Notes under the pieces: generated by a model
Database searches by the model: none
Told to the model about the DNA's origin: nothing
The model's input: only the letters and a program-made list of their open reading frames with translations
Source: Gemmatimonadota bacterium
GTDB lineage: Bacteria > Gemmatimonadota > Gemmatimonadetes > Longimicrobiales > Gaopeijiaceae
Length of the DNA stretch: 64,000 nt
Direction: 5' to 3'
NCBI GenBank assembly: GCA_030827315.1
Contig: JAURER010000002.1
Coordinates: forward strand, 62,001-126,000
Program-made: the position numbers and the translations under genes
Shown: one piece after another, positions 7,488 through 31,881 of the stretch
Position numbering within the stretch: position 1 is the stretch's first letter
How the letters are laid out: every line of letters starts with the position of its first letter

Positions 7488-7516
7488 TTGAGGCCCTGCG
7501 GGTAATAATATATTAT
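7488..7516 (+). promoter_or_regulatory. Promoter of the ArsR-methyltransferase gene, near-leaderless
   Basis: TTGAGG (4/6) and TATTAT (5/6) are separated by exactly 17 bases in an AT-rich island that contrasts with the GC-rich surroundings. Transcription would begin near 7523, only about 7 bases before the ATG at 7530, and no ribosome binding site is seen. The mRNA would be leaderless or nearly so. Confidence 0.55.
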
Positions 7517-7538
7517 CGTATTCGCATTTATGAATACG
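7505..7538. promoter_or_regulatory. Two palindromes over the -10 and start codon: candidate operator
   Basis: A perfect 12-bp palindrome ATAATATATTAT (7505-7516) covers the -10 element. It is followed by a 7-bp inverted repeat CGTATTC / GAATACG (7517-7523 and 7532-7538), whose right arm starts within the ATG. ArsR-family dimers bind imperfect AT-rich inverted repeats, so autoregulation by the adjacent gene product is likely, by inference. Confidence 0.5.
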
Positions 7539-8474
7539 TTGACTCCACCCCCCATCCTCGAGCGTCTGAGCGCCCTCGGTGACGAGACGCGCGTGCGCCT
7601 CCTCACCCTTCTGGAGCGCAGCGAGTTCACGGTGGGGGAACTGTGCACGGTACTCCACGTGCCCCAGCCCACCGTGAGTCGTCAGCTCAAGGTCCTGGCG
7701 TCGGAAGGTTGGGTGGCTGCCCGCATCGACGGGCGGAATCGCCACTATCGGCTGAGTCCGGACCTTGACGATTCGGCTCGTTCGCTCTGGCGCATCGTTC
7801 GCGAGGGGATCGGCAACGACGGGCCGTGGCAGGCGGACGCCGAGCGCGCCCGTGCCGTTCTCGACCGGCGCCGGATGCGTGCGACCGCATTCTTCGCCGA
7901 GACCGCGGGACGGTGGGACGAAATGCGGACCGAGCTTTTCGGGATGTCTGCCGCCCTCGCCCCCATGCTCGGGCTCGTCGAGCCTTCGTGGGTCGTGGGT
8001 GACCTCGGGGCGGGATCCGGAGCGCTGTCCGCGCGCGTGGCCCCGTTCGCCCGTCGGGTGATCGGCGTCGACCGGTCCGAGGAGATGCTCGCGACGGCGC
8101 GGGCCCGCACCGCCGGCCTGCCGAATGTCGAGATCCGGCACGGCGAGCTCGAGCACCTCCCCATCGACTCCGACGGGCTCGACGTCGCGATTCTGGCGCT
8201 GGTCCTCCATTACGTCGTCGACCCCCTGGCGGTGCTCGCCGAGGCCCGACGCGTACTCGTGCCGGGGGGGCGTCTCCTGCTCCTCGACATGAGGGAGCAC
8301 GATCGCGGCGTCGGCTACGCCGAAGAGATGGGCCACGTCTGGCCGGGCTTCGAGCCCGGGCGCGTCGCCGCCTGGCTCCGGGACGCCGGCTTCGCCTCGC
8401 AGCGCGTGACGCCACTACCGCCCGATCCAGACGCGTCGGGCCCGCTGCTCTTTCTCGCCTCCGCGCGCGCCTGA
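7530..8474 (+). CDS. ArsR-family regulator fused to a SAM-dependent methyltransferase domain (SahR-like)
   Basis: A 314-residue two-domain protein. Residues ~1-95 form an ArsR winged helix ([17 protein letters not shown]; recognition helix around [13 protein letters not shown]). Residues ~145-300 are a class I methyltransferase fold with the SAM loop [12 protein letters not shown] and the acidic turn GVDRSEEML. No metal-binding cysteine pair is present in the ArsR part. It stands 71 bp upstream of ahcY on the same strand. ArsR-type SahR regulators are known to sense S-adenosylhomocysteine and control ahcY; a methyltransferase fold that binds SAM/SAH is a plausible sensor domain here (inference). 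Whether it also methylates something is open. Confidence 0.88.
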
Positions 8475-8545: not shown

Positions 8546-10033
8546 ATGAGCGATACCGCCCTGATGCCCGAAACCCTTACCACGACCGAGCGTCCTGCCT
8601 TCAAGGTCGCCGACCTCTCGCCCGAGACCGTGCGCTGGGGCCGAAACGAGATCCGTCTCGCCGAACAGGAGATGCCCGGTCTCATGGCGGCACGCGAGGA
8701 GTACGGGCCCCGCAAGCCGCTCGCGGGCCTCAAGGTCGCGGGCTCGCTCCACATGACCGTCCAGACGGCCGTGCTCATCGAGACCCTCGCCGATCTGGGC
8801 GCCGACGTGCGCTGGGCGTCGTGCAACATCTTCTCGACGCAGGACCACGCGGCGGCGGCCGTCGCGGTCGGGCGCGACGGCACGCCGGACGATCCGAAGG
8901 GCTCCGCCGTGTTCGCGTGGAAGGGCGAGACGCTCGAGGAATACTGGTGGTGTACGGACCAGATGCTCACCTGGCCCGACGGGTCCGGTCCGGACCTCCT
9001 GGTCGATGACGGTGGAGACGCCACACTCCTGATCCACAGGGGCGTGGAGTACGCCACCGCGGAAAACGTGCCCGACTTCGACCCCGATGCCGACCCGGAA
9101 GAATGGGGCGTGATCCTCGACCTGCTGCGCCGCACCCTGTCCGAGGACCCCGGCAAGTGGGCCCGGATCGCGAAGGACATCCGCGGCGTCTCGGAGGAGA
9201 CCACGACCGGCGTGCACCGGCTCTACGAGATGGAGGCGGCCGGATCACTCCTCTTCCCCGCGATCAACGTCAACGACTCCGTGACGAAGTCGAAGTTCGA
9301 CAACCTCTACGGATGCCGTCACTCGGTCGTGGACGGGCTCAACCGGGCTACGGACGTGATGCTGTCCGGCAAGAGCGCCGTCGTGCTCGGGTACGGCGAC
9401 GTCGGCAAGGGATGCGCCCAGGCCCTTAAGGCCCAGGGCGCGCGGGTTCATGTGACGGAGATCGACCCGATCTGCGCGCTCCAGGCCTGCATGGAGGGTT
9501 ATCAGGTCGTGCGCCTCGAAGACGTCCTCGAGACCGCCGACCTCTTCGTCACGGCCACCGGAAACAGGGACATCATCACCGCCGCGCACATGGCGAAGAT
9601 GAAGGACAAGGCCATCGTCGCGAACATCGGCCACTTCGACAACGAGATCGACATGGCGGGCCTCGCGAAGGTGAAGGGGATCCGCAAGGAGCAGATCAAG
9701 CCGCAGTACCACGAGTGGACCTTCCCCGACGGGCATTCGGTGCTGATCCTCGCGGAGGGCAGGCTCATGAATCTCGGATGTGCCACGGGCCACCCGAGCT
9801 TCGTGATGTCCGCGTCCTTCACCAACCAGGTCATCGCACAGATCGAGCTCGCCACGAACGCCGGCGGGTACGCCAACAAGGTGTACGTCCTGCCGAAGCA
9901 CCTCGACGAAAAGGTCGCCCGTCTCCACCTCGACAAGCTCGGCGCACGCCTGACCGAACTGTCGGAGTCGCAGGCGACCTACATCGGTGTGCCGAAGAGC
10001 GGCCCGTACAAGCCGGACCAGTACCGGTACTAG
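8546..10033 (+). CDS. ahcY: Adenosylhomocysteinase (S-adenosylhomocysteine hydrolase)
   Basis: A 495-residue NAD-dependent enzyme that splits S-adenosylhomocysteine into homocysteine and adenosine and keeps cellular methylation running. Substrate-domain motifs include [17 protein letters not shown] (~67-83) and [15 protein letters not shown] (~92-106). The NAD site is [13 protein letters not shown], and the C-terminal KPDQYRY tail that closes the neighbouring NAD site is intact. It has the ~40-residue insert (around [16 protein letters not shown]) found in many bacterial enzymes. The regulator upstream and the downstream 32-bp palindrome suggest a two-gene unit. Confidence 0.98.
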
Positions 10034-26193: not shown

Positions 26194-26264
26194 ACGCGCG
26201 CACCGCGCGTGTCCGCGAACAAGCTAAAAAGCCGGAGCCCCTTCGCGACACTTCGCGAGGGGCT
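26194..26264 (+). promoter_or_regulatory. metH leader with two strong hairpins next to the ribosome binding site
   Basis: Hairpin 1 pairs ACGCGCG (26194-26200) with CGCGCGT (26204-26210) across a 3-base loop. Hairpin 2 pairs AGCCCC-T-TCGCGA (26236-26248) with TCGCGA-GGGGCT (26253-26264) across CACT, with one bulged T. The ribosome binding site GGGGAGGA follows only 6 bases after hairpin 2. It matches no SAM, SAH or B12 riboswitch consensus I know. A translational or attenuation control is possible but inferred. Confidence 0.4.
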
Positions 26265-26284: not shown

Positions 26285-29200
26285 TTGAGCGTCAGCAACG
26301 GCACGCGTGCCGACCGGGTCAGGCGTCTGGACGAAGCGCTGGCGACCCGCATCCTGGTCATCGACGGCGCCATGGGCACGATGATCCAGCGACACCGCCC
26401 GGAAGAGGCGGACTTCCGGGGTGACCGCTTCGCGGATCATCCCGCATCGCTCCAGGGGGCGAACGACCTCCTGTGCCTCACCCGGCCTGAGATGATCGGC
26501 GCGATCCATCGCGAGTATCTGGACGCGGGCGCGGATCTGGTCGAGACGAACACCTTCAGTGCGAACCGCATCTCCCTCGCCGACTACGACCTCGAGGGAA
26601 TCGCGGAGGAGCTGAACCGGGCGGCGGCGCAGGTGGCCCGGGCCGCGGCGGACGCATGCATGGCCGAAAACCCGGGGCGCATCTGCTGGGTCGCCGGGGC
26701 GCTCGGACCGACGACCCGTTCGGCGTCGATCTCCCCGGACGTCGGCGACCCCGGCGCCCGGAACGTGTCCTTTGACGATCTCGTCGTCGCCTACAGCGAG
26801 CAGGCCCACGCGCTCCTCGACGGCGGTGCCGACGTCCTCCTCGTCGAGACCGCGTTCGATACGCTCAACGCCAAGGCGGCGCTCTTCGCCATTTCCGGGG
26901 TGCTTGAGGATCGCGGCGAAGACGTGCCCGTGATGGTATCCGGCACGATCACCGACCAGAGTGGCCGCACGCTTTCCGGACAGACCCCCGAAGCGTTCTG
27001 GAACTCGGTCGCGCACGGGGTACAGCCGGGGCCCGGACGCCGCAGCGGGCTGCTGTCCGTAGGGCTCAACTGCGCGCTGGGCATCGATCAGTTACGTCCG
27101 TTCCTGGAGGAGCTGTCCGACGCCGCGTCCGTGCCGGTGAGCTGCTATCCGAACGCCGGGCTCCCGAACGAATTCGGCGAGTACGACGACACGCCGGAAC
27201 ACATGGCCGCGGTCACGCGCGAGTTCGCCGAGGCCGGCTTCCTGAACATCGTAGGGGGGTGCTGCGGGACGACGCCCGCGCATATCCGCGCCATCGCCGG
27301 GGCGGTCGCAGGGCTGACCCCGAGGGCCCTGCCTTCCCTGCCCGTTCGCACGCGCCTCTCGGGACTCGAGCCCCTGACGATCGGACCTGACTCCCTCTTC
27401 GTGAACGTCGGCGAGCGGACCAACGTCACCGGGTCGCGTCGCTTCGCCACCCTGGTGCTGGAGGGTGACTACGAGACCGCGGTCGAGGTCGCGCTTCAGC
27501 AGGTCCAGGGGGGTGCGCAGATCCTCGACGTCAACATGGACGAAGGGCTGCTCGACGCGGTCGGCGCGATGACGCGCTACCTCAACCTCCTGGCGTCCGA
27601 ACCGGAGATCTGTCGCATTCCGGTCATGGTCGATTCCTCCGACTGGAAGGTGATCGAGGCCGGCCTGCGCACGCTCCAGGGCAAGGGCGTCGTCAACTCC
27701 ATCTCGATGAAGGACGGGGAGGAGGCGTTCCGGGAACGCGCCCGGCTCGTCCGGCGGTACGGGGCCGCCGCCGTGGTCATGGCGTTCGACGAGGAGGGCC
27801 AGGCGGATACCCTCGAGCGGCGGGTGGAGATCTGTCGAAGGGCATACCGCATTCTGGTGGACGAGGAGGGTTTTCCGCCGGCCGACGTGATCTTCGATCC
27901 GAATGTGTTCGCGGTCGCGACGGGCATCGAGGAGCACGACCACTACGCGGTCTGGTTCATCGAGGCCGTCCGGCGCATCAAGGAGGCGTGCCCGCACGCA
28001 CTCACCAGCGGGGGGATCAGCAACGTCTCCTTCTCCTTCCGGGGCAGCCCGGAAGTGCGGGAGGCGATGCACGCGGCCTTCCTGTACCATGCCATCGAGG
28101 CGGGTCTCGACATGGGGATCGTGAACGCGGGCGCACTGCCCGGCTATGACGACATTCCCGCCGAGCTGCTCGGGCCAGTCGAGGACGTTCTCTTTGCGCG
28201 CGACCCACAGGCCACCGAAACGCTCACGCGCATCGCCGGCGAGCGGACCGGCTCCACGGAGCGCCGCTTGCAGGAGGACCTCTCGTGGCGCGAGCTCTCC
28301 GCGCGTGAGCGGCTGATCCACGGGCTCGTCCACGGCATCGACCAGTACGTCGTGGAGGACACCGAGGAGACGCGGCGCTCGCTCCCCCGTGCGCTCGACG
28401 TTATCGAAGGTCCGTTGATGGACGGGATGAACGTCGTCGGAGACCGGTTCGGCAGCGGACGCATGTTCCTGCCCCAGGTGGTGAAGAGCGCGCGCGTCAT
28501 GAAGAAGGCGGTCGCCTTCCTGGTACCGTTTCTCGAGGCCGAGCAGACATCGGCCGAGGCGCGTGGCAAGGGGAAGGTGCTGCTCGCGACCGTGAAGGGC
28601 GATGTGCACGACATCGGAAAGAACATCGTGGGCGTCGTGCTGCAGTGTAACGGGTACGAGGTCGTCGATCTCGGGGTGATGGTGCCCGCAGACAGGATCC
28701 TGGAAGCGGCGCGCGCCGAGCGTGTCGACGTCGTGGGCCTGTCCGGACTCATCACGCCATCCCTCGACCAGATGGTGCATATCGCCGAGGAGATGCAGCG
28801 GCTCGACTTCGATCTTCCCCTTCTCGTCGGGGGCGCCACGACGTCCAAGGCGCACACCGCGGTCAAGATCGAAGGTCGGTACGATGGGGCGGTCATCCAC
28901 GTCACGGACGCTTCGCGTGCCGTCGGCGTCGTGGCGGCCCTCCTCGATCCGGACCGGTACGACGGCTTCCTGGCCGATACGCGCAGGGAGTACGCCGAGA
29001 CTCGCGCCCGTCGCGCCGAGCATGCCGAGAAGAGCGAGCTCCTCTCCATCGACGAAGCGCGGGCCCGCCGGCCTTCGGTGGACTGGACGGCGTACGAGCC
29101 GCCGGTCCCGCGCGAAGCGGGTGTCCAGGTCGTGGACGACGTGACGGTCGACGAGCTGCGGCCCTTCATCGACTGGACGCCCTTCTTCCAGGCCTGGGAA

Positions 29201-30037
29201 CTCCACGGGAAATACCCGCACATCCTCGACGACGCGGTGGTCGGCGAACAGGCCCGCGCGCTCTTCTCCGACGCGGCTGCGATGCTCGACCGGATGGCGA
29301 CCGAGGGAATCGTCCAGCCGAGGGCGGTGGTGGGCCTCTTCCCGGCCCGCTCCGTGGGGGACGACATCGTGGTGCTCAGTGACACGCGTGACGGGGTCGA
29401 GCCTGCGGTCCGCGCGACGATCCACGGCCTTCGCCAGCAGTTCGCCAAGAAGGATCGCTCGAACCTCGCCCTGTCGGACCTGGTGGCTCCGCTCGGTTCC
29501 GGGGTGCCGGACTGGATCGGCGCCTTCGCGGTGACCGCCGGCGCCGGCGCCGAGGCGATGGCACGCGAGCTCGAGGCGATGCACGACGACTACGCAGCCA
29601 TCATGGTGAAGGCCCTCGCCGATCGCCTGGCCGAAGCGTTCGCGGAGCTGCTGCATCGACGGGTCCGGGTGCGGATCTGGGGGTACGCGGAAGACGAGAC
29701 TCTCGACAACGATGCGCTCATCGCGGAAGCGTATCGCGGTATCCGTCCGGCACCCGGCTATCCGGCATGCCCCGACCACACGGAAAAGCGGACCCTGTTC
29801 GAGCTCCTCGACGTCGAACGCGCGGCCGGCATTTCCCTCACCGAGAGCTTCGCCATGACACCGGGAGCGTCCGTCAGCGGGTGGTACTTCTCCCACCCGG
29901 ACGCCCGCTACTTCGGCGTCGGACGGCTCGGCCGCGACCAGGTGGAGGACTACGCCGCGCGGAAGGGGTGGACCGTGGAGGAGGCCGAGCGCTGGCTCGC
30001 ACCGAACCTCGGGTACGACACCAGGAGCAAGGAATGA
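26285..30037 (+). CDS. metH: Cobalamin-dependent methionine synthase
   Basis: A 1250-residue enzyme that moves the methyl group of 5-methyltetrahydrofolate via cobalamin to homocysteine. All four modules are present: homocysteine/zinc domain (GLNCALG ~260, [10 protein letters not shown] ~324), pterin-binding domain ([15 protein letters not shown] ~372), B12 cap and B12-binding domain ([12 protein letters not shown], His ~774) and the reactivation domain (~905-1250, with [15 protein letters not shown]). TTG at 26285 fits the GGAGG site with seven bases spacing; GTG at 26279 would touch it. The last bases overlap the next gene (ATGA). Confidence 0.97.
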
Positions 30038-31881
30038 GACGCCTGATCGAGGACGGGCGCGTGCACGTGTTCGACGGCGCCATGGGCACGCTCCTCTACA
30101 GTCGCGGCGTCTTCGTGAACGTCTGTTACGACGAACTGAATCTCAGCCGCCCGGAGCTGGTCGAGGGCATTCACCGCGAGTACGTGGCGGCCGGTGCCGA
30201 GATCCTGGAAACGAACACGTTCGGGGCCAATCCCGTAAAGCTCTCCTCGTACGGGCTCGCGGAGCGCACCGAGGAGGTCAACGCGGTCGCCGCCCGGCTC
30301 GCCCGCCGTGCCGCCGGTCGGGCCGCCCTCGTCGCGGGTGCCTTGGGCCCGCTGGGAATCCGACTGGAACCCTGGGGGCCCACGTCCCTCGACGAGGCGG
30401 TCGCGTTCTTCCGGCGCCAGGTCGCAGGGCTGCTCGAAGGCGGCGTCGACGGCTTCGTCCTCGAGACGTTTTCGGACCTGAGCGAGATCGAGTGCGCCAT
30501 CCGCGCCGTCCGCGAAGAATCGGACCTCCCGGTCTTCGCGCAGATGACGGTCGGTCAAGACCGGCGCACAGCGTTCGGTACGGAGCCCGCCCAGCTCGCG
30601 AGCGCGCTCGAGAAGACGTCTGCGGACGTCATCGGACTGAACTGCTCGGTCGGACCGGCCGTCATGCTCGACGCAATCGAGGAGATGGCGGAGGTCACCA
30701 CCCGCCCCCTGTCGGCTCAGCCCAACGCCGGCCTGCCCCGCACGGTCGGGGACAGAAAGATCTACCTGGCCAGCCCCGAGTACATGGCGCAATACGCGCG
30801 GCGGATGATCGACGTCGGGTGCAGGTTCGTGGGAGGATGCTGCGGGACGACCCCGGATCACACGCGCAAGATGCGAGACGCGGTGTCCGCGCTGCAGCCG
30901 AAGCACACGAGTGTCGTCATCTCCTCCGCCTCCGTCGGCGAGCCGACGCTGGCCGATCCACCCCCGCTCGACGTCCGCTCCGCCTGGGGACGCAAGCTCG
31001 CCCGCGGTGAGACGGTGGTCTCCGTCGAGATCGTTCCACCGCACAGCTGGGATCCGCGGGAGGTCACCGAGCCCGCACGGATGCTCAAGGTCGCGGGGGT
31101 CGACGCGGTGAGCATCGTCGAGAGCCCCCGTTCACGCAGCCGCATGGGCGCGCTGCCGGCCGGGCTGATCATCGAGCGCGAGGTGGGCATCGAGGCGATC
31201 GTGCACTACACGTGTCGGGACAAGAACATGCTCGGCATGATCTCCGATCTGCTCGGTGCCGCCGCGGCCGGAATCCGCAACATTCTCGTGGTCTCCGGCG
31301 ACCCCCCGGTCATGGGCCCGTATCCGGACGCGACCGCGGTCTTCGACATCGACTCCATCGGGCTCACGAACGTCATCCAGGGGCTCAACCGGGGTGTCGA
31401 TCCGGGGAACAACTCGATCGGGGAGCCGACACGCTTCGTTCAGGGCGTCGCCGTGAACCAGGGCGCCGTCGACCACGACCGGGAACTCTCGCGCTTCCGC
31501 TACAAGATCGAGGCGGGGGCGGACTTCGCCGTCACCCAGCCGGTCTTCGACCCGGACGCCCTCGAGCGATTCCTCGAAGCGGCCGCTCCGGTGGGGATCC
31601 CCGTGGTGGCGGGGATCTGGCCGTTCATGAGCCTCCGCAACGCCGAGTTTCTGGCGAACGAGATGCCGGGCGTCGACGTGCCCCCACAGATCGTGGAGCG
31701 CATGCGGCTCGCCCAGGAGTCGGGCGCGGAGGCGGCCGTCGAGGAGGGGGTCGCGATCGCCCTGGAGATGATCGAGGCGACCCGGCCGTTCGTGCAGGGC
31801 TTCCACATCAGCGCACCGCACCGCAAGGTGGAGATCCCGCTCCGCGTTCTGCGAGAAAGCGGGGTGCGCTCGACCGCCTGA
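30034..31881 (+). CDS. Bifunctional homocysteine S-methyltransferase / methylenetetrahydrofolate reductase
   Basis: A 615-residue fusion like Bacillus YitJ. Residues ~1-290 are a zinc-dependent homocysteine methyltransferase ([32 protein letters not shown]). Residues ~330-600 are a flavin-dependent MTHFR domain ([40 protein letters not shown]). The start ATG overlaps the metH stop, so both are made together. It would supply 5-methyl-THF to MetH and offers a second, B12-independent route to methionine from another methyl donor (family knowledge). The first domain duplicates the first module of MetH next door. Confidence 0.94.

Follow-up and report, generated by a model that had tools for sequence, protein, structure and literature searches.

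The 50 bases in front of and across the start of a sahR-like gene from Gemmatimonadota probably hold all the control elements of a sahR-ahcY operon that regulates itself, in which the start codon lies within the operator and SAH would release the repressor. This reading draws on what the genes encode and how they are ordered, on the geometry of the promoter, the conservation of the operator, the embedded start codon and the missing Shine-Dalgarno sequence, all of them seen at the level of sequence. The conserved operator as a rule stands 3 nt behind a conserved -10 hexamer and Shine-Dalgarno sequences are rare at starts inside it, so that this layout is best read as a near-leaderless start repressed by the gene's own product. 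The region is part of a stretch of 64 kb (in the following, the window) from a genome of 3.07 Mb in 99 contigs. An earlier note on the same DNA had described a near-leaderless promoter covered by two palindromes; it had the design right but misjudged one of the palindromes.

The sahR-ahcY locus

SahR proteins combine a helix-turn-helix with a methyltransferase-like sensor domain, and SahR of Proteobacteria has reportedly been placed in the ArsR family, in work by Novichkov et al. said to have appeared in Environ Microbiol in 2014. The sahR-like gene of the window (7530-8474, plus strand, 314 residues), found by domain and homology searches and with its ATG inside the operator, encodes the same make-up: an ArsR-type helix-turn-helix (HTH_5 at residues 18-60, HTH_metalloreg at 11-78) is joined to a C-terminal SAM-methyltransferase-like domain of class I at about residues 156-254 (Methyltransf_11, PF08241, 158-250, 3.6e-21). 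Its best protein relatives come from metagenome-assembled genomes of Longimicrobiales/Gemmatimonadota, with a top identity of 70%. Among the 53 matches to solved structures listed, none covers the whole fusion, ArsR-family domains and methyltransferases being matched separately.

Linkage to ahcY, a further mark of SahR, is seen both in the gene order of the window and in its relatives. The gene for S-adenosylhomocysteine hydrolase (8546-10033, plus strand; TIGR00936 with 598.6 bits, above the cut-off) follows downstream of sahR and has its own Shine-Dalgarno sequence, CGGAG, ahead of the ATG at 8546. In 93 of the 96 fetched sahR loci, ahcY likewise lies downstream on the same strand, and the remaining three run into a contig end. 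On the other side, a fatty acid desaturase gene (PF00487; 6233-7390, minus strand) points away from sahR; its start was inferred by eye from eight loci at a TTG (7390-7388) preceded by GGAG. At E <= 1e-40, sahR matches were found in 197 of the 395 genomes of the phylum. One genome carries two sahR-like copies, one of them (G259:C127:3535-4449) with an in-frame TAG, perhaps a decaying duplicate.

Promoter, operator and predicted leader in the window

The 17-base-spaced promoter of the earlier note is present at 7488-7516 on the plus strand, with a -35 hexamer TTGAGG (7488-7493) and a -10 hexamer TATTAT (7511-7516). A promoter scan of 6 kb returned three sites, all in the control region, compared to 0.4 +/- 0.6 in shuffles; two of these come from reading this AT-rich region on the minus strand. 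The AT-rich island itself is evident as well, the GC content being 0.417 at 7490-7549 vs 0.55-0.83 in the other listed 60-bp segments between 6500 and 8479.

Directly behind the -10 hexamer lies the predicted SahR operator of 22 bp, CGTATTCGCATTTATGAATACG (7517-7538), with the 16-mer core ATTCGCATTTATGAAT at 7520-7535. It contains a perfect 7-bp inverted repeat, CGTATTC (7517-7523) and GAATACG (7532-7538), whose arms are separated by 8 bases and which spans the ATG at 7530-7532. The window holds 18 exact repeats with 7-bp arms and an 8-bp gap, so that a single such repeat is at chance level; what makes this one significant is its conservation in relatives rather than its isolated occurrence.

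From the position of the -10 hexamer, transcription is predicted to start at 7522-7524 (plus strand). Since 13 nt separate the end of the -10 hexamer from the ATG and a start would be expected 6-8 nt past the -10, the predicted leader comprises 6-8 nt, i.e., it would be short but not zero, in good agreement with the leader of about 7 bases that the earlier note had called near-leaderless. The A of the -10 hexamer sits 18 bp ahead of the ATG, and the predicted transcript is consequently near-leaderless, not leaderless. No Shine-Dalgarno match was found in TATCGTATTCGCATTT, the sequence directly ahead of the ATG of the window's sahR, and a longer N-terminus of the protein is excluded by the in-frame stop TAA at 7506-7508. 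On the scale of the genome, a crude profile of 275 gene starts (464 kb, home-made gene calls), a weak test for leaderless starts, gave flat TANNNT counts and a Shine-Dalgarno peak at about -12. Among only 13 promoter-like pairs in the 464 kb, an ATG or GTG in frame lay within 20 nt of three, including that of the window, compared to four in the out-of-frame control, and there is hence no enrichment.

The operator in Gemmatimonadota

For a comparison with relatives, 96 loci with a sahR match at E below 1e-40 were used, 89 from the listed matches in genomes of the phylum, six from other contigs and the window's own, of which 92 distinct loci were left once identical control regions had been removed. 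The operator register was defined by the best-scoring core within 90 bases, a search that itself favours the motif and therefore needs gene bodies and shuffles as controls; in five loci (L054, L072, L075, L076, L094) the register was adjusted manually to fit the -10. A core score of 9-10 out of 10 was reached by 86 of the 92 loci, but by none of 276 gene-body stretches and by only five of 920 shuffles of the same bases; seven of the 92 loci score just 7-8 at the register used.

The aligned loci share one layout, a -35-like TTG, a TANNNT -10 and then the core ATYCNNATNNNNGRAT. The -10 was found in 62 of the 92 loci, with the operator core following exactly 3 nt after it in 56 of these 62, and no TANNNT was present at the expected place in the other 30. 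In the loci with an in-frame ATG at operator position 11 (the position-11 class, whose very definition makes its ATG columns conserved), the -10 columns are T in 31, A in 34 and T in 35 of 35 loci. Conservation of the -35 is moderate: TTG lies 16 or 17 bases ahead of the fixed -10 in 22 of 35 loci of this class (15 at 16, seven at 17) and 16-18 bases ahead of the -10 in 46 of 56 loci of the other classes.

In the 56 loci without an ATG at position 11, the core reads ATCCGGATNNACGGAT, with the consensus letter in 49-56 of 56 loci at columns 1-6 and 13-16. This phylum consensus fits exactly the published ATC-10 nt-GAT, the consensus reported as common to SamR and gammaproteobacterial SahR (PMC4239095). 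In the lineage of the window the half-sites tend to ATTC/GAAT, and the window's own copy, a variant ATT-N10-AAT in the same register, departs from the published form. Across all loci, left position 3 is associated with right position 14 (Fisher 0.002, kinship ignored). The operator arms pair at 4.4-5.3 of 7 positions on average vs 0.74-3.43 at slid positions, the mean in the rows with ATG at position 11 being 4.4. Within these rows (38 in any frame, 37 complete) no covariation of the arms beyond the make-up of the columns was detected, as shuffled right letters paired as well in 559 of 2000 cases; the pairing signal stems from differences between the start classes and not from covariation inside the position-11 class. 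To judge from these alignments, the inverted repeat that the earlier note saw reaching into the ATG is a conserved operator that usually follows a conserved -10 at a distance of 3 nt.

Apart from the dyad, CGGAT recurs in direct orientation with a spacing of 8 bp in the core of L118, L113, L131 and others (CGGATnnACGGAT), and a third half-site may thus matter for binding.

The start codon inside the operator

An in-frame ATG occurs at operator position 11 in 36 of the 92 loci and at position 15 in 22, whereas the first possible start lies elsewhere in 34. With transcription beginning about 7 nt past the -10, the predicted leaders would be approximately 6-8 nt (position 11) and 10-12 nt (position 15) long. 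Shine-Dalgarno sequences of at least 4 nt precede three of 36 starts at position 11, none of 22 at position 15 and five of 34 elsewhere, compared to 12 of 92 random places and 70 of 89 ahcY starts in the same loci, the latter figure leaning high as it takes the best of several possible starts. The lack of a ribosome binding site claimed for the window extends to most relatives with a start at position 11 or 15.

The second codon in the 36 loci of the position-11 class is AAT in 25, GAT in nine, CAT in one and GAA in one, with no AAC or GAC, while AAT and GAT stand at 27% each elsewhere in the same gene bodies and AAT makes up 301 of 2280 Asn codons in the window's genome; the corresponding binomial values (5e-15, 8e-6) are too favourable, as they ignore the kinship of the sequences. 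In a quick protein tree of 93 rows, from which the first 8 residues of the phylum rows were left out, 34 of the 36 position-11 loci fall in one clade of 37 rows (SH-aLRT 100). By parsimony, six changes are counted for position 11 alone and 15 when all start classes are considered.

Two explanations for this overlap have to be weighed. It could be a passive by-product without any gain, arising where SahR operators lie at the transcription start and leaders are short in the lineage, and we give this account nearly an even chance. Consistently, the place of the start varies with the lineage (position 11, position 15 or neither) while the operator stays near the -10, start class changes 15 times on the tree by the parsimony count, and the leader is longer and includes a Shine-Dalgarno-like stretch in some relatives, such as L073, which starts after the operator although it belongs to the 37-row clade. 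Set against this, the position-11 placement is kept in 34 of the 37 rows of that clade, Shine-Dalgarno matches are at or below background at the starts in positions 11 and 15, and the ATG of a metH gene in another genome (G244) also lies at operator position 15. The second explanation, that selection put the start codon inside the operator, so that a single element of 22 bp would act at once as repressor site, start region of transcription and start codon, is in our view somewhat doubtful. If true, the first residues of the repressor (Met-Asn/Asp) would be dictated by its own binding site, and the combination of a leaderless-type start for sahR with a normal one for ahcY would allow separate translational control of SahR and AhcY from one mRNA, spanning a large part of Gemmatimonadota.

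Operator sites and the predicted regulon

The exact motif is present in 103 of the 395 genomes of the phylum, namely in 91 of 197 with sahR vs 12 of the 198 that lack a sahR match at E <= 1e-40 (co-occurrence: Fisher 3e-21, kinship ignored). For 86 of its 134 places, spread over 68 genomes, a listed position of sahR allowed a comparison, and 63 of the 86 lie within 80 bp of sahR. The 12 genomes with the exact operator only (G001, G003, G124, G138, G173, G177, G258, G271, G273, G356, G367, G385) possibly reflect missing or cut contigs (G367), a diverged sahR or chance.

Among 38 loci with an exact site, sahR adjoins it in 24, metF followed by metH in nine (L146, L147, L218, L220, L221, L223, L224, L225, L227), metH alone in one and none of these genes in four (L199, L205, L209, L210, the contig of L210 ending just past the site). 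PF02219 and PF02574 were matched in three of the metF/metH loci, and L224 belongs to a genome without a listed sahR match. In the single case of metH alone (L150), its ATG stands at operator position 15. Geometry at metF differs from that at sahR: by eye, in L146 and L147, the operator lies about 100 bases ahead of the coding region and forms the spacer between -35-like and -10-like hexamers on the metF strand.

In the window's genome, the family form of the motif occurs exactly once, at sahR. Allowing up to one mismatch gave six places compared to two for the reversed control pattern, and we judge the five inexact ones to be chance. By eye, no operator copy was seen just upstream of metH (26285), of the gene for a homocysteine methyltransferase-metF fusion (30034) or of metK in this genome. 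Given the single exact site, the regulon there may consist of sahR-ahcY alone.

Two features of the metH region were noted in passing. Directly ahead of the metH ribosome site GGGGAGGAG, at 26237-26263, lies a stem (GCCCC-T-TCGCGA / TCGCGA-GGGGC) of 11 pairs in which a single base bulges out. It may act as a terminator, or else control metH as an element not yet catalogued, and no Rfam match was obtained near metH (TTG start at 26285), even at E up to 1. Furthermore, one frame of 615 codons (30034-31881) joins homocysteine S-methyltransferase and MTHFR (metF) domains, its ATG overlapping the stop of metH (26285-30037).

The SAH riboswitch (RF01057) was found in four of the 395 genomes (L228-L231), two of the matches being above the cut-off, in a search whose filter can lose weak matches; three of these genomes (G379, G088, G269) also carry sahR. 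With so few genomes containing it, the riboswitch is no apparent stand-in for SahR where sahR is absent.

Alternative readings of the control region

It is very unlikely that transcription starts further upstream and that the inverted repeat acts as an RNA hairpin hiding the ATG. The repeat is perfect in the window and does span the ATG, as such a hairpin would; yet the conserved -10 directly ahead of it means that the left arm would hardly be transcribed, the arms are imperfect in most relatives, as seen in the pairing of the position-11 rows, and the same element at metF lies far ahead of the coding region between promoter-like hexamers. A hairpin or riboswitch was also rejected on the ground that the window has no Rfam match at gathering scores.

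Equally improbable is a regulator that senses a metal or arsenic instead of SAH, i.e., an ArsR-type metalloregulator joined to an arsenite-methyltransferase-like enzyme. By E-value, the top NCBIfam matches are arsenite methyltransferase, with 68.5 bits well short of its cut-off of 263, and HTH_metalloreg, which at 67.5 bits exceeds its cut-off of 55. One type of metal site in ArsR/SmtB metalloregulators is a CxC motif in the region of the recognition helix. This site is missing from the recognition region of the window's protein, which reads ELCTVL, and the matching EITTVL of a Solidesulfovibrio homologue has no cysteine; the linkage to ahcY and the operator sites at metF-metH in relatives speak against metal sensing as well. 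The Solidesulfovibrio (Desulfovibrionaceae) protein shares 41% identity over residues 12-291 (E 4e-47), has ahcY downstream (62.6% identity) and is preceded by TTGACA and then CATATCAGGATATCTTGATATG, with the ATG as its last three bases; we infer that it is the orthologue of the studied SahR. With its domain make-up, ahcY linkage and operator, the gene that the earlier note took for an SAH regulator is best described as SahR-type.

The 12-bp perfect palindrome ATAATATATTAT (7505-7516) over the -10, to which the earlier note ascribed a part in autorepression, hardly qualifies as a further operator or as a two-way promoter serving the divergent desaturase. It does exist in the window together with promoter-like matches on the minus strand; yet perfect palindromes of 12 bp or more are centred at 51 points of the window, so that an isolated one is at chance level, and the relatives pair at 2.2 of 6 positions vs 0.95-1.92 at slid positions. 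Barely above these controls, it was rejected as an operator and is regarded as a by-product of the AT-rich -10: the 92 distinct loci of the phylum keep of it just the -10 hexamer T-A-T-n-n-T. Conservation in relatives, the test on which both palindromes depended, thus holds for the inverted repeat and fails for the 12-bp palindrome beyond that hexamer.

Proposed mechanism and implications

Under the preferred reading, in which sahR and ahcY form an operon under SahR's own control, the -35/-10 pair at 7488-7516 would recruit RNA polymerase, and transcription would begin near 7523, leaving six to eight bases ahead of the ATG, on a transcript that probably covers both genes. The 22-bp operator (7517-7538), which reaches from right behind the -10 through codon 3, would be occupied by a dimer of SahR, and the start region would thereby be blocked. 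When SAH builds up, it could bind to the C-terminal methyltransferase-like domain and release the repressor, and AhcY would then clear the excess. As the operator fills the space from the -10 to codon 3, a Shine-Dalgarno sequence does not fit in and sahR would need a leaderless-type start, while ahcY would keep its normal ribosome site.

If this holds, the SahR switch extends to Gemmatimonadota, i.e., to about half of the sampled genomes (197/395), with a recognisable operator at 86 of 92 fetched genes. The region would also be a clean natural example of how a promoter, an operator, a start codon and the codons next to it can be tied to one another, making the costs and benefits of leaderless-type starts for repressors testable. 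Two cautions follow for similar work: palindromes spotted by eye in a -10 need a check of their conservation, and the N-terminus of such proteins may reflect constraints on the DNA rather than protein function.

Comparison with known systems

No description of SahR in Gemmatimonadota was found in the literature, a part of the co-mentioning papers having been judged by title (ecology, soil or clinical studies), and no paper was found that mentions leaderless starts together with Gemmatimonas. Among bacteria in general, the layout resembles the leaderless genes of Actinobacteria and Deinococcus-Thermus, for which the passages covered describe a TANNNT near the start and no Shine-Dalgarno sequence (PMC3160421, PMC12340547). 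The -10-like signal of bacterial leaderless genes is placed there about 12 bp before the start (PMC3160421), in contrast to the 18 bp seen here, and unlike in Actinobacteria or Deinococcus-Thermus (PMC3160421, PMC12340547) such starts are not visibly common in the window's genome, as far as the crude profile tells. CrtR of Corynebacterium glutamicum offers another parallel, being a repressor whose gene is reported as leaderless with a palindromic operator near the promoter (PMC5401885). It belongs to the MarR family and has another ligand, the crtR promoter and its autoregulation are not well understood, and the passages covered do not mention a start codon inside the operator (PMC5401885).

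Closer relatives are found among the regulators of SAH and SAM metabolism. SamR of Xanthomonadales is, according to the parts of the source covered, a distant SahR homologue with an ATC-10 nt-GAT operator (PMC4239095); its motif comprises 24 bp, it sits with metH and it has been proposed to answer SAM (PMC4239095), whereas the partner here is ahcY. The core regulon of SahR is given in the same passages as sahR, ahcY, metH, metF and metK (PMC4239095), and SahR has also been described in Ensifer aridi (PMC8877191). As far as these sources were covered, the system predicted here is like SahR of Proteobacteria in having ahcY among its targets, autoregulation and a palindromic operator (PMC4239095, PMC8877191). 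For metH and metF, which are also SahR targets in Proteobacteria, sites were seen in ten of the 38 exact-site loci but not in the window's genome. It differs in belonging to another phylum, in the half-site ATTC/GAAT of the window's family and in the single exact site of the window's genome. While the known SahR was compared by domains, targets and operator consensus, the start codon in the Gemmatimonadota system stands in the operator core itself, behind a predicted leader of only 6-8 nt.
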